Below, piece by piece: positions 1,877-10,207 of a stretch of 10,207 bases of DNA. The position numbers and the translations under genes are program-made. Origin of the DNA: Gemmatimonadota bacterium (GTDB lineage: Bacteria; Gemmatimonadota; Gemmatimonadetes; Longimicrobiales; Longimicrobiaceae); NCBI GenBank assembly GCA_019348475.1, contig JAHWJJ010000123.1, positions 1-10,207 of the forward strand. Reading direction: 5' to 3'. Every line of letters begins with the position of its first letter. Within the stretch, counting starts at the first letter, position 1. The notes beneath the pieces are model-generated. The model did not search any database. It was not told the DNA's origin and saw only the letters and a program-made list of their open reading frames with translations.

Positions 1877-2059
1877 TCAGCACAGGCACGACCAGCCACC
1901 GTTGCAACTCTGCATGCAACTCAAGTCGCAGGTCTCCTGCCCAAACTCGGTGTGCGTCGTCCCGTAGTGCCCCACGACCGTCCCCCTCTCCGCGGACTGC
2001 TTGTCCGTAGCAAACGACTCCACCCTCAGTGCCTCGACGTTCAGCGTCAGCTTCTTCAT
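1877..2059 (-). CDS. Cys-rich precursor peptide, pinensin-family lanthipeptide-like
   Basis: 60 residues. The leader begins MKKLTLNVEALRVESFAT, which resembles the leader of pinensin-type class I lanthipeptide precursors found in Bacteroidetes and Longimicrobium-like genomes (from memory of the family). A mid-region RGTVVGH separates it from the core. The core has five Cys (44, 48, 52, 58, 60), and the first four are each directly preceded by Thr or Ser (T43, S47, S51, S57). Further Thr at 34, 35 and 37 offer dehydration sites, so lanthionine rings are plausible. The start is well set by a GGGAG ribosome binding site. Two related hairpins lie downstream. No dehydratase, cyclase, protease or transporter gene is visible, so it is an orphan precursor here; the enzymes would have to act in trans. 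An unmodified disulfide-rich peptide is the alternative, although there is no signal peptide. Confidence 0.72.
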   Translation of the reverse strand: MKKLTLNVEALRVESFATDKQSAERGTVVGHYGTTHTEFGQETCDLSCMQSCNGGWSCLC

Positions 2060-4056: not shown

Positions 4057-7000
4057 TCATCCGGCGACGCGGGCGATCGCCACGGTGCCGGCGACGCCGT
4101 CCAGGTCCACCTCGCGCGACGCGTCGTATCCCTCGAAGTCCGTCACCGATCCCGTCTCCAGCTCCGTCGCCAGCGTTTCACCGGCCACGAACTCGCCCCA
4201 CTCGCGGCTCACGTCCAGGATCTCGCCGTCGCCAAAGATCCCCAGTCGAATGCGGTCCTGCACCTCCAGCCCCGTCTCCTTGCGCAGGTTCTGCACCCGG
4301 TTCACGAGCTCGCGCGCCAGCCCCTCCAGCCGCAGCTCCGGTGTGATCGTGGGGTCCAGCGCCACGGTGAACCCCGCCTCGTCCGCCGTGGCAAAGCTGC
4401 CCCGCGCGCTCTGCACGATGTCGAAGTGCTCCGCGATCACATCGAACGCCTCCCCGTCCGCCTGCACCTTCAGCGGCTCGCCGCGGCGGAAGGCGGCCAG
4501 CACCGCCGACTCCAGCCCGCGGATGGCCTCCGCCACCTTCGGAGTGAGTTTCCCGAACACGGCGCCCAGCGCCTTGAAGTTCGGCTTCGCGCTGAACGTC
4601 ACCAGCTCCTCGGCGGCGTGCATGAACTCCACCGTGCGCACGTTCAGCTCGTCGCGCAGGATTGCGAGCAGCGCGTCGTCCACCTGGTAGCCGTCCGGGA
4701 CCACGGCGTACAGCGTCCCCAGCGGCTGGCGCACGCGAATGCCCACGGAATCCCGCGCCGCGCGGCCCAGCGTGGACAGCGTGCGGACCGCCTGCATCCC
4801 CCGCTCCAGCCGTGCGTCCACCGAGGCCACATCCACCGCCGGGAAATCCGCCAGGTGCACGCTGCCGCCCGTCAGCGCGCGGTGCAGCCAGTCGGAAAGG
4901 AAGGGGGCGAACGGCGCCATCAATCGCGACACCGCCACCAGCGCCTGGTGCAGCGTGGCGAAGGCGGCGCGGGTGTCCGCCGCGTCCGCGGAGCCCCAGA
5001 AGCGGTCGCGCGAGCGGCGGACGTACCAGTTGCTCAGGTCGTCCACCACGAATTCCGCCACGGTGCGGACCGCGTGCGTCAGGTTGTACGCCTCCAGGTC
5101 TTCCGTGACCTCCGCCGTCACCGTCGCCAGGCGCGAAAGGAGCCAGCGGTCCAGCAGCGAGCGCTCCGCGGGCGCGTCCGCATCCGCCGTCCATCCCTCC
5201 AGTCCCGCGTACATGGCGAAGAAGCGGTACGTCTGGCGCAGCGTGTCGAACGTCTTGCGCTGCACCTCCTTTACGCCCTCGGGATCGAAGCGCTTGGGAA
5301 GCCAGGGGTTGGACGACGACAGCAGGTACCAGCGGATGGTGTCGGCGCCAAAGCGGTCGATCGCCTCCCACGGGTTCACGATGTTGCCGCGGGACTTGCT
5401 CATCTTGAGCCCCTTGTCGTCCAGCAGCATGTCGTTCACCACCACGTTGCGGTACGACGGCCCCCGGCCGAGGAGCGTCGAGATCGCCAGGAGCGAGTAG
5501 AACCACCCGCGCGTCTGGTCCACCCCCTCGCAGATGAACTCCGCGGGAAACTGCCGCTCCTGCCGCTCGCGGTTCTCGAACGGGTAGTGGTGCTGGGCGA
5601 ACGGCATCGATCCCGAGTCGAACCAGACGTCGATCACCTCCGGCGTGCGACGCATGGTCCCCCCGCACTGCTCGCACGGCCACTGCAGCTCGTCCACGTA
5701 CGGGCGATGCGGATCGGGAAGCTGGCTGAGCCCCGTCTTCTCCCGCAGCTCGTCGAAGGATCCGATGAAGTGGAGGTGCGAGGGGTCGCGGTCGCACACC
5801 CAGGCGGGGAGCGGGGTGCCCCAGTAGCGGTTGCGGCTGATGGCCCAGTCCACGTTGTTCTCCAGCCACTCGCCAAAGCGGCCGGCGCCGATCTCCGGGG
5901 GAAACCACCGGGTCTCGGCGTTATTGGCCAGCAGATGGTCGCGCACGGCGGTGGTGCGGATGAACCACGAGTCGCGCGCCATGTACAGCAGCGGGCTCTG
6001 GCACCGCCAGCAGTGCGGGTAGCTGTGCTCCTCGCGCGACGAGCGGAACACCCGGCCGCGGCGCTTGAGCTCGATCACCAGGTCGGTGTCGGCGTCCTTG
6101 ACGAACACGCCGCCCACCAGCGGGATGTCTTCCCTGAACCGCCCGCGCTCGTCCACGGGCATGATGATGGGAAGCCCCACCTCCTGCCCCAGCCGGTAGT
6201 CGTCCGCGCCGAACGCCACCGCGGTGTGCACGATCCCCGTGCCGTCCTCCGCCGAAACCCACTCCGCGCCGTACACCTTCCACGCGCGCGCCACCGTCTG
6301 CGCGTCGAACCCCACGGGATGCGCCCAGTCCAGCGGCCGCTGGTACGCCAGCCCGATCAGCTCGGACGCGGGAAAGGTGCGCGCCACGGCGTCCTCGGAG
6401 CCGAACAGCGGCGCCACGCGCGCGCGCGCCAGGACGTAGCGGTGCCCCTCGTGCTCCACCTCGGCGTACTCCAGCTCCGGGCTGACCGCCAGCGCCACGT
6501 TGCTGACCACGGTCCACGGCGTGGTGGTCCAGACCAGGAACTCGCGGCCGTCCGGCTCGCCATCCGCCCCCAGCACGGGGGCGGTAAAGAAGAGCGACGG
6601 GTCCTTGACGTCCTTGTAGCCCTGCGACAGCTCGTGCGAGGAGAGTCCCGTTCCGCAGCGCGGGCAGTACGGCAGCACCTTGTGCCCGCGGTAGAACAGC
6701 CCGCGCTCGCTGATCTGCTTCAGCAGCCACCACACGGATTCGATGTAGTCCGCGTGATAGGTGACGTACGGCTTCGAGTAGTCCAGCCAGTAGCCGATGC
6801 GGGCGGAAAAGCGCTCCCACTCGTCCGTGTAGGTGAGCACGCTTTCGCGGCACACCTCGTTGAAGCGGGCGATGCCGAGCGCCTCGATCTCGCGCTTGCC
6901 GCTGATCCCCAGCTTTTTTTCGGCCTCGATCTCCACCGGCAGGCCGTGCGTGTCCCACCCCGCCATGCGCGGCACCCACCGCCCCTGCATGGTGCGGAAG

Positions 7001-7209: not shown

Positions 7210-7319
7210 CGGTCCGGTCTGATCTTTTCTGCGCGAGTGGTAGAACCGCTGAAGTTAACCCGTGGGGGAAGATTCGGACACCGGGTCCGCGGCGCTTCGA
7301 TCCCCGTCCTTCCCGCGCC

Positions 7320-7353
7320 CCCCGCAGATCCCGCACGTGTCGGGATCGCGGGG
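7320..7353. other. Strong stem-loop upstream of ileS
   Basis: CCCCGC-A-GATCCCG (7320-7333) pairs with CGGGATCGCGGGG (7341-7353), giving 13 pairs with one bulged A around a 7-nt CACGTGT loop. Outer complementary blocks (GTCC/GGAC and others) may extend it. It lies 111-144 bp upstream of the ileS start and would be part of its leader if transcription starts far upstream. Confidence 0.6.
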
Positions 7354-7407
7354 ACGGCGCGGCTGCGGAAGGGGGAGAGTGATCACCTTCGCGGGAAAAC
7401 GCCAGGA

Positions 7408-7481
7408 ACCGGCGGAGAGCCGAGCCGTCCGCCGGTCGGTTCGCCGATCGAACCCGTTCAGCCTTGCGGCCGATCGGCTCA
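7408..7481 (+). repeat. Left copy of a 75-bp direct repeat
   Basis: 74 bp that align with 9334-9409: the first 14 bp are identical, a short variable middle differs in length by 2 bp, and the last 54 bp match at 45 positions. The last 28 bp match except at one position. It carries a perfect 9-bp inverted repeat (ACCGGCGGA at 7408-7416, TCCGCCGGT at 7428-7436). Unlike the right copy it is not next to the 3' end of a gene but lies between two divergent genes. Confidence 0.8.
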
Positions 7482-7690
7482 CGCTGATGCCGTTCACGGC
7501 GCCGGCGGTGATGCCGATGCGCGCCGTCGCCACCGAGATCCCGCCGCTGGAGATCGCGGGTCAGGCGCAGACCCTGCGGACCAGCGGGTGCGCGATTCTC
7601 GTCTGGCGCTCCGTGGCCGTCGCTGCGCGAGCTGGGGCGGTGCGCGCGCCCGGTGACCGGCCGTCCGCCACCCATCACCGTGTCGGAGCG

Positions 7691-8653
7691 ATGTGGAAGC
7701 ACGAACTCGACCCCGCGCAGGCAGCGTCCGCTCTCCTGCGGGCGGGGCTCTCTCTGCGCCCGGAGCAGCTCGTCCTGGAGCGCCGCGACGAACGGTGGCT
7801 CGTCGGCCTTCCCGGACGCCGGCTGGCGTGGTTCGCCGCTACGGCGGAAGGAGAACGGTCTCTCGCCGTGGAGCGGCGCGTCCTCCGACTGCTGCGCGCC
7901 CGGTGCTCGTTCCGGGTGCCGGAGGTGCTCTTCGTGGACCCGCTCGGCGAGTTCGAGATCCGGACGATGGTCGGGATGCCGGTGGACGTTGCGGCAATCA
8001 TGCGCCGGCTGCGGACCGACCCGGCCACCGAGCGCCGCGTGGGCGAGCAGATCGGGCGAATCCTCGCGGAGCAGCATACCCGGATCGCCGCGCGGGAGGT
8101 GGAGGGGTGGCTGCCGCGAACGCTCACAGGGCCGCTGCCGCTGGAACGGGTGCCACCCCAGCTCGAAGGCGTCGTTCCGGACCGCCCGGACCTGCACGCC
8201 GCGGCCAGCGAGGTGCTCGCCCGGTACGACGCGCTCTCCGTCGCGCCCGGCGACCACGCGCTCATCCACACCGACGTCGGCTTCCACAACCTGGCGATCG
8301 AGAAGGACGGCATCTCCGTCACCGGGCTCTTCGACTACGACAGCGCCGCGTGGGGGGACCGGCACCACGACTTCCGCATCCTGATCTACGACCTGGAGCG
8401 CCCGGGGCTGCTGAAGGCGGCGATGGAGGCGTACGGGCGCGCGACGGGCATCGCGCTCTGTTCCGAGCGGATCCTGCTCTACAACGCCGTGGTCGCGTTC
8501 AGCTACCTCGCGTACCGCGTGGGCGCGCGGCCCGAGGAGCGGCCGTGCGGCAGAACGCTGGACGAGGATCTGCGCTGGTGCGAGTGGGCGGCAGAGAAAG
8601 TCCTGGGCACGGGGCGGCGCCGCCTCTTCGGCCATGCCGTGCCGGACGAATAG
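7691..8653 (+). CDS. Aminoglycoside-phosphotransferase-fold (APH family) protein
   Basis: 320 residues. The C-terminal lobe has the APH/choline-kinase catalytic loop HTDVGFHN (193-200, catalytic Asp195, Asn200) and the metal-binding LFDYDSAAWGD motif (Asp215). The family transfers phosphate from ATP or GTP to small molecules such as aminoglycosides, macrolides, choline, homoserine or hydroxyurea; the substrate here cannot be read from sequence. The N-lobe is unusual: apart from Lys3 there is no lysine before residue 205, so the beta-3 ATP-binding Lys is missing, although a possible helix-C Glu61 (AVERRVLRLL) is present. The ATG at 7691 is chosen because homology-like sequence begins there and GGAG lies just upstream; the frame is open for 143 more codons, but that part contains a dispersed repeat and is low-complexity. 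It lies on the opposite strand to ileS and groEL, inside a direct-repeat-bracketed segment. Confidence 0.82.
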   Translation: MWKHELDPAQAASALLRAGLSLRPEQLVLERRDERWLVGLPGRRLAWFAATAEGERSLAVERRVLRLLRARCSFRVPEVLFVDPLGEFEIRTMVGMPVDVAAIMRRLRTDPATERRVGEQIGRILAEQHTRIAAREVEGWLPRTLTGPLPLERVPPQLEGVVPDRPDLHAAASEVLARYDALSVAPGDHALIHTDVGFHNLAIEKDGISVTGLFDYDSAAWGDRHHDFRILIYDLERPGLLKAAMEAYGRATGIALCSERILLYNAVVAFSYLAYRVGARPEERPCGRTLDEDLRWCEWAAEKVLGTGRRRLFGHAVPDE

Positions 8654-8949: not shown

Positions 8950-8955
8950 GGAGGG
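8950..8955 (+). promoter_or_regulatory. Shine-Dalgarno of the defensin-like gene
   Basis: GGAGGG lies seven bases before the ATG at 8963. This is the best ribosome binding site in the window and selects the 68-residue start over an upstream in-frame ATG at 8774. Confidence 0.85.
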
Positions 8956-8962
8956 AACGGAG

Positions 8963-9169
8963 ATGAAGAAGACGGGAATCCCACGGCTGGCGTTCGCGGC
9001 CGCGACGTCGGTGGCGCTGGCGTTCGGCGCCAGCCAGGCGGTCGCCGCGCCTTCCACGGCAAAGTCCGCCGGCGAGGCGGCCTGCACGGACCGGCAGTGT
9101 CGCCAGGCGTGCGCCCCGTTCGGCGGCTACTGCGACGAGTTGCGCGGCGTCTGCGTCTGCGAAGGATAG
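8963..9169 (+). CDS. Secreted six-Cys peptide with a defensin-like (CS-alpha-beta) cysteine pattern
   Basis: 68 residues. The N-terminus is a Sec signal peptide: MKKTGIPR, a hydrophobic core LAFAAATSVALAFGA, and an AVA or VAA cleavage site near residue 28-29. The exported part of about 40 residues has six Cys (41, 46, 50, 57, 64, 66) spaced C-x4-C-x3-C-x6-C-x6-C-x-C. CxxxC plus CxC in this order is the cysteine-stabilised alpha/beta signature, and GGYCDELRGVCVC fits the defensin gamma-core (G-x-C-x3-9-C). It resembles the C-terminal half of insect defensins, but the C3-C4 loop is shorter (6 instead of about 9-10). The mature peptide is not cationic (net charge about -1), which is atypical for a membrane-active defensin. 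Bacterial defensin-like peptides are known from myxobacteria, so the fold is possible. The function could be antimicrobial, signalling or protease inhibition; none is shown. A strong ribosome binding site and a downstream hairpin support a real gene. Confidence 0.75.
   Translation: MKKTGIPRLAFAAATSVALAFGASQAVAAPSTAKSAGEAACTDRQCRQACAPFGGYCDELRGVCVCEG

Positions 9170-9406: not shown

Positions 9407-9409
<3 letters not shown>
9334..9409 (+). repeat. Right copy of the 75-bp direct repeat, overlapping the groEL stop codon
   Basis: 76 bp aligning with 7408-7481 in the same orientation. Its last three bases (9407-9409) are the complement of the groEL TGA stop. It contains the hairpin at 9336-9362. 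Together the two copies bracket about 1.85 kb that hold both plus-strand genes. Confidence 0.8.
9336..9362 (-). terminator. Probable groEL terminator
   Basis: CGGCGGAG (9336-9343) and CTCCGCCG (9355-9362) form a perfect 8-bp stem, with three further pairs inside (9345-9347 with 9351-9353). In minus-strand RNA it begins 44 bases after the groEL stop and is followed by a pyrimidine-rich stretch (GTCTTCCTTTC). This is the best intrinsic terminator candidate in the window. Confidence 0.6.

Positions 9410-10207
<798 letters not shown>

Follow-up and report, generated by a model that had tools for sequence, protein, structure and literature searches.

A large, variable family of secreted defensin-like peptides in Gemmatimonadota with a probable CS-alpha-beta core and a recurrent redoxin neighbour

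Introduction

Peptides with the cysteine-stabilized alpha-beta (CS-alpha-beta) scaffold are already known from bacteria, where the described examples are few and patchily distributed: the text available of Cardoso et al. (2024) covers 74 bacterial defensins from three phyla, arranged as classes I-V of secreted six- or eight-cysteine cis-defensins that include xanthusin-1, and does not contain the word "Gemmatimonad" (PMC11561630). A second bacterial group, the actifensins and actinomycesin (actinodefensin, NF038042), includes multicopy operons reported, in the passage available, to hold up to seven copies (PMC6989792). Here we describe a gene for a peptide of this general kind, located at positions 8963-9169 (+) of contig JAHWJJ010000123.1 from a Gemmatimonadota bacterium of the Longimicrobiaceae, together with the peptide family to which it belongs; the whole stretch of DNA analysed, 10,207 nucleotides long, is referred to as the window. 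No literature report of CS-alpha-beta peptides in Gemmatimonadota or Longimicrobium was found, the papers retrieved being judged by title, in a search that mostly did not extend to subscription papers.

Among eukaryotic peptides, the insect/arthropod and ancient invertebrate-type defensins, the plectasin-type fungal defensins and nasonin-1 share with the window's peptide family the cysteine order C..CxxxC..GxC..CxC and a predicted helix-strand-strand arrangement, and they provide its best profile and fold matches. The window peptide differs from them in its C1-C2 loop of only four residues, low sequence identity, near-neutral charge and a bacterial leader with a motif of its own. Scorpion short-chain alpha-KTx peptides (alpha-KTx 19.1, alpha-KTx 5) have the same compact core and short N-terminal loop, and the structures 1q2k, 1r1g and 3e8y are the nearest solved folds of a typical family member; these are animal venom peptides, and the shared fold implies no shared function. 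Among the bacterial groups, the window peptide fits the pattern CX(2,18)CX(3)CX(2,12)CX(4,17)CXC given for cis-defensins, and its tail of 11-12 residues, for a probable cleavage after residue 28-29, falls within the 9-13 residues of class II; in the passages available, that class occurs in Cystobacterineae, to which no link of the window's phylum is shown (PMC11561630). Actifensin operons contain ABC transporters and other afn genes, and their leader is of a different kind.

Results

The precursor and its predicted fold

The initial annotation, made from the window alone, had proposed a secreted peptide with a defensin (CS-alpha-beta) framework, and its description of the open reading frame is borne out by translation. 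The gene is organized as follows:

8951..8956 (+): ribosome-binding-like GGAGGG 5' of the ATG, read from the sequence
8963..9169 (+), stop included: whole gene for a secreted six-cysteine CS-alpha-beta-type peptide precursor of 68 amino acids, from translation and members in the same and related genomes
8963..9049 (+): residues 1-29, signal peptide carrying the family motif L-x-F-G-A-x-Q-A-x-A, from sequence and motif conservation
9050..9082 (+): residues 30-40, variable N-terminal tail preceding the first cysteine, from high column entropy
9083..9166 (+): CS-alpha-beta-type core, residues 41-68, from the AlphaFold model, the profile match to solved structures and the fold search

The frame opens with ATG and closes with TAG at 9167-9169. 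The precursor begins with a basic n-region, a hydrophobic core and an AVA-A cleavage-like site, as in Sec-type signals, and cleavage is predicted after about residue 28-29. The cysteines lie at residues 41, 46, 50, 57, 64 and 66, spaced C-x4-C-x3-C-x6-C-x6-C-x-C and in the CS-alpha-beta order C..CxxxC..C..CxC, with GGYC and GVCVC both present. The proposed gamma-core also holds, as GGYCDELRGVC fits GxC(x3-9)C; GxC recurs in all 45 other members scanned, not always at C4.

To characterize the fold, a profile of 46 mature domains was compared with solved structures. It matched 153 distinct chains at E<=10, led by nasonin-1 at 2.4e-6 and followed by alpha-KTx peptides and insect and fungal defensins; judging by their names, we take the best 60 of the 153 to be CS-alpha-beta proteins. 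A column-shuffled control (a single shuffle, imperfect in that moved gap columns upset some cysteine spacings) matched three chains, the best being alpha-KTx19.1 at 0.016, so that the true profile outperformed it by about four orders of magnitude. AlphaFold models consist of one helix followed by two strands, with a core predicted local distance difference test (pLDDT) score of about 87-94; the window model has a core value of about 88, its helix at about residues 43-49 and the strands of its hairpin at about 55-58 and 63-66. In Foldseek, the model of a typical member aligned with 1r1g at a template-modelling (TM) score of 0.85 and with 3e8y at 0.90, both by target length.

Searches with the window peptide alone gave little: fold searches were weak, a single-sequence search of solved structures returned only unrelated weak matches (best E 0.48), and the mature peptide scored 10 bits (E 0.85) against Pfam Defensin_2 (PF01097), below the curated cut-off of 20.4 bits. 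It matched no NCBIfam family, including NF038042, at E<=0.1, a threshold at which 13 of 47 family members match NF038042 (best 9.3e-5). Pfam on the full precursor gave DUF6520 at E 0.049, below cut-off, which we take as a leader-type resemblance. A separate set of 18 eight-cysteine sequences, encoded beside redoxin genes (see below), also matched CS-alpha-beta chains first (noxiustoxin, 6.1e-5), reached xanthusin-1 at E 0.07 and aligned with the six-cysteine profile at probability 84 and E 7.2e-6. The scaffold is thus very probably CS-alpha-beta, as the initial annotation had it, and spacing and models predict disulfides C1-C4, C2-C5 and C3-C6 that would connect the CxxxC helix to the CxC strand.

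Family size, distribution and gene arrays

A search with the window peptide identified further copies in its own genome, and relatives were detected in 8 of 21 genomes of its bacterial family (53 matches, E<=0.01). A 47-member profile matched 16 of 395 genomes of the phylum (E<=0.001); since no more than 15 candidates were scored in any genome, these copy numbers represent lower bounds. Two genomes (G026, G373) were excluded because the signal part alone had matched, in long frames. Extraction from the fetched loci yielded 92 distinct sequences, or 90 members in 15 genomes after two cut duplicates were dropped. The counts are at least 21 in G014, 20 in G011, 14 in G010, 9 in G000, 8 in G013, 5 in G005, 4 in G012 and 2 in G324, with at least one member in each of seven further genomes. 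Named genomes, scanned by pattern, yielded no relative.

Six cysteines are present in 68 members and eight in 16; three members have four, and seven, five and zero occur once each. The commonest six-cysteine spacing is 4-3-9-4-1 (17 members), and the pattern CxxxC..[GA]xC..C(C)xC fits 73 of the 90, so the cysteine framework is kept in many relatives. The C3-C4 loop that had been singled out as short is so by family standards, at six residues where nine is commonest. The slight acidity of the window peptide (net charge -1 over residues 29-68, counted by hand) is a general trait, the 90 members averaging -0.92 (standard deviation 2.1, range -7 to +4); the clear positive charge of cationic membrane-lytic defensins is absent from it.

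The 90 sequences include a truncated, cysteine-less copy in G014 (L041:5595-5924, -) and a degenerate four-cysteine copy in the window's own genome (L004:1265-1435, +), which we read as signs of gene birth and death. Four-cysteine members of the form CxxxC...CxC lie at L050:5302-5508 (+) and L097 about 4527-4850 (+). They resemble two-disulfide peptides that others have reportedly proposed as ancestors of defensins.

Tandem arrays comprise at least nine genes in G014 (C30) and at least five each in G010 (C83) and G011 (C103), and all three loci are flanked by a conserved gene that we take to be NYN-like. This gene occurs in 9 of 10 genomes of the genus and adjoins an array in three of the nine; in the other six, the fetched sequence surrounding it contained no family member. 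A gene next to that of the window peptide, which we presume to be groEL, was found in all 10 genus genomes and has a family member nearby in two: at 0.24 kb in the window's genome, and at about 3.6 and 3.8 kb in G011. None was present in the stretches fetched from the other eight, some with flanks of only 2-4 kb. The frame is therefore conserved in a related genome: the two closest relatives, which share 60% and 53% identity with the window peptide, are located at G011:C34:5604-6057 (L009), with the qualification that both carry CxxxxC where the window peptide has CxxxC.

Constant leader and cysteines, variable core

Among 47 aligned members, five of the six cysteine columns are invariant and the first is cysteine in 46. 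Column entropy is 0.02 bits at the cysteines, 0.96 in the motif region (residues 19-30), 2.76 in the tail (31-40) and 2.99 at the other core positions. A degenerate DNA pattern for F-G-A-x-Q-A-x-A, tested on six genomes, matched 31 sites in four of them, all inside family genes by coordinates and one of them in the truncated copy; the reversed pattern produced none in the same six genomes. For the mature part, Nei-Gojobori estimates of nonsynonymous (dN) and synonymous (dS) change between the window peptide and its nearest relative were 0.43 and 0.29, and values over 11 pairs were mixed, from about 0.23 to 1.5; dN/dS is rough in GC-rich codons and indicates fast change here, not a test of selection. 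The family is thus rapidly duplicating and diversifying while its leader and cysteines stay constant.

A redoxin gene upstream of the peptide gene

When the neighbours of 54 loci were clustered in search of a shared immunity gene, transporter or regulator, only a thioredoxin-like (redoxin) gene stood out, then at four loci; the same clustering gave the flanks common to the three array loci and a few unnamed three-locus clusters. Together with tblastn, it places the redoxin gene directly upstream of a peptide gene in nine genomes of six bacterial families (G007, G012, G013, G016, G156, G291, G324 with two copies, G328 and G331). Pfam AhpC-TSA/Redoxin scored above cut-off in five of six redoxins tested, and eight aligned redoxins have an N-terminal hydrophobic anchor, with CxxC retained in six. 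Two redoxins of G324, at L145:5460-6167 (-) and L145:8159-8758 (-), depart from the rest, one being interrupted by a stop and the other lacking CxxC.

A profile of the eight seed redoxins, searched over the 395 genomes, recovered, from the loci examined, 27 unique redoxins at E<=1e-20; for 16 of these, a secreted peptide of the strict form CxxxC..C..CxC is encoded on the same strand no more than 900 nt downstream. Eight of these 16 are the seeds, and two more (the second G324 copy and that of G291) had also come to light by way of the peptide. The other 17 of the 27, detected with the redoxin profile only, comprise six with a strict peptide, one with a looser cysteine-rich peptide, one with a shorter peptide recognized by eye, two cut by contig ends, one with a peptide 1.8 kb away and six with none; four of those six belong to genomes whose peptide genes are scattered or form arrays. 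Among eight weaker redoxins, one had a strict peptide.

At the level of genomes, with the seven seed genomes left out, 6 of 7 peptide-bearing genomes have a redoxin at E<=1e-22, as do 10 of the 381 that have no peptide (Fisher 1.2e-8). For the bacterial family of the window, the figures are 7 of 8 against 0 of 8 when seeds are counted (p 0.0014) and 4 of 5 against 0 of 8 when they are left out (p 0.007); all three tests ignore shared ancestry. The one missing genome of the eight is the window's own, which is 76.55% complete and yielded no strong redoxin, and no redoxin gene turned up next to the arrays or next to the window copy. Neither such arrays nor a redoxin link is seen in the passages available on bacterial cis-defensins (PMC11561630), and we regard the linkage as new to this analysis.

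DUF4876, TonB-receptor genes and other neighbours

DUF4876 (PF16215) was found in 13 of 24 genomes searched, and at 16 of its 21 places, by coordinates, a peptide or redoxin gene lies no more than 3 kb away; none of the nine genomes searched from the window's bacterial family contains it. A TonB-receptor gene adjoins the peptide gene in L148 (Pfam) and probably in L147, where NCBIfam matches are weak and below cut-off. DUF4876 lipoprotein-like and TonB-receptor genes recur by the peptide outside the window's bacterial family, in L145, L147, L149, L150, L148 and others.

Within the window, the peptide gene stands between an APH-type phosphotransferase gene at 7262-8653 (+; Pfam APH, E 2.9e-16) and the 3' end of the presumed groEL at 9407-10207 (-). 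A scan for a sigma-70-like promoter, ill-suited to GC-rich DNA, found none for the peptide gene. Elsewhere, 1880-2059 (-) encodes a 60-amino-acid peptide that starts MKKLTLNVEALRVESF and has a cysteine-rich end; it resembles the NCBIfam pinensin-type lanthipeptide leader at E 4.8e-4 and 20 bits, under the cut-off of 24. A similar leader, M-x-K-L/I-x-L-x-x-x-x-L-x-V-E-(S/T)-F, is found in related genomes at L020:736-936 (+), L038:6297-6488 (-) and L187:1459-1767 (-). The L038 peptide adjoins the nearest relatives of the window peptide, and those of L020 and L038 have no NCBIfam match.

Discussion

The secreted precursor, the conserved cysteines, the CS-alpha-beta-type core as judged from profile and prediction, the expansion and the redoxin linkage are directly demonstrated or well supported. 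Our best explanation of the whole, which we consider evenly poised between right and wrong, is a secreted, periplasmically oxidised defensin-like effector, probably serving microbial competition. The precursor would be exported by Sec and its signal cleaved to leave a peptide of roughly 39 residues, which would be oxidised in the periplasm to the CS-alpha-beta scaffold. The membrane-anchored, TlpA/ResA-like redoxin may help to form or correct the disulfides, acting in trans in genomes with scattered peptide genes, and the peptide would then cross the outer membrane. By analogy with plectasin and actinomycesin, both binders of lipid II, it would probably bind a specific target in competing or predatory microbes; the passage available on actinomycesin describes a block of cell-wall synthesis through lipid II (PMC8819291). 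A cationic membrane-lytic peptide is disfavoured because the family is near neutral, and a role other than membrane killing, as initially suggested, is plausible. Weighing against an effector function, xanthusin-1 is described, in the passages available, as having shown no antimicrobial activity (PMC11561630).

The main rival places the redoxin, the peptide, the DUF4876 lipoprotein and the TonB receptor in an outer-membrane uptake or export module, for instance for metal or haem, with the peptide as carrier or regulator. It owes this standing to passages that count DUF4876-TonB loci of Bacteroidetes among the genes with strong changes in the iron stimulon (PMC10434189) and that report a requirement for the TonB-dependent Oar in PopC secretion (PMC6434023). 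Most DUF4876 places are near a peptide or redoxin gene, and TonB-receptor genes lie by the peptide in L148 and probably L147, as such a module would have it; yet the window's bacterial family, which has the largest set of these peptides, lacks DUF4876 in all nine genomes searched, and tandem expansion with hypervariable cores suits a carrier poorly, which leaves the module unlikely.

Somewhat less probable again is a signalling or kin-recognition system in which polymorphic CS-alpha-beta ligands are sensed by the same or related strains. A constant leader with variable, near-neutral cores would agree with it, as would the variation in presence and copy number among related genomes (an array at three of nine NYN-like loci, a groEL-side copy in two of 10), but the clustered loci show no recurrent receptor or regulator gene next to the peptide genes. 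That the peptides adopt another cysteine-rich fold, knottin-like or metal-binding, whose spacing merely mimics CS-alpha-beta, we hold to be improbable. Six-cysteine spacing by itself does match weakly, as the shuffled control with alpha-KTx19.1 illustrates, AlphaFold models of short cysteine-rich peptides are alignment-driven and some members are off pattern; set against this are the lead of the true profile over the shuffled one, the agreement between predicted element order and fold matches, and the independent eight-cysteine set that finds CS-alpha-beta chains first. A chance open frame, for which only the small size speaks, was rejected and is barely conceivable given the family conservation, the ribosome site, the conserved leader and a six-frame filter (hydrophobic stretch plus CxxxC..C..CxC) that retains exactly one open reading frame of the window and not a single one across the 106,172 control bases from 14 loci of related genomes without the peptide family.

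Returning to the secreted effector, a broader and distinctly tentative proposal is a phylum-wide system in which exported CS-alpha-beta peptides would be oxidised or proofread by a dedicated membrane-anchored redoxin and, in most lineages, taken through the outer membrane by DUF4876 and TonB-receptor proteins. The peptides of the window's bacterial family would have left the operon and multiplied into hypervariable genes by the tens, as a bacterial parallel to the multigene families of venoms and defensins.

The family, with at least 21 diverse copies in its richest genome, a leader in common and a thiol-redox gene linked to it, constitutes a large natural library for antibiotic discovery. It also offers a route to how bacteria fold disulfide-rich peptides and supplies new data on a bacterial origin, as opposed to convergence, of eukaryotic defensins. 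Since so large and variable a family is often accompanied by the gene of a probable disulfide-handling enzyme, these bacteria may offer a rich source of defensin-like molecules.
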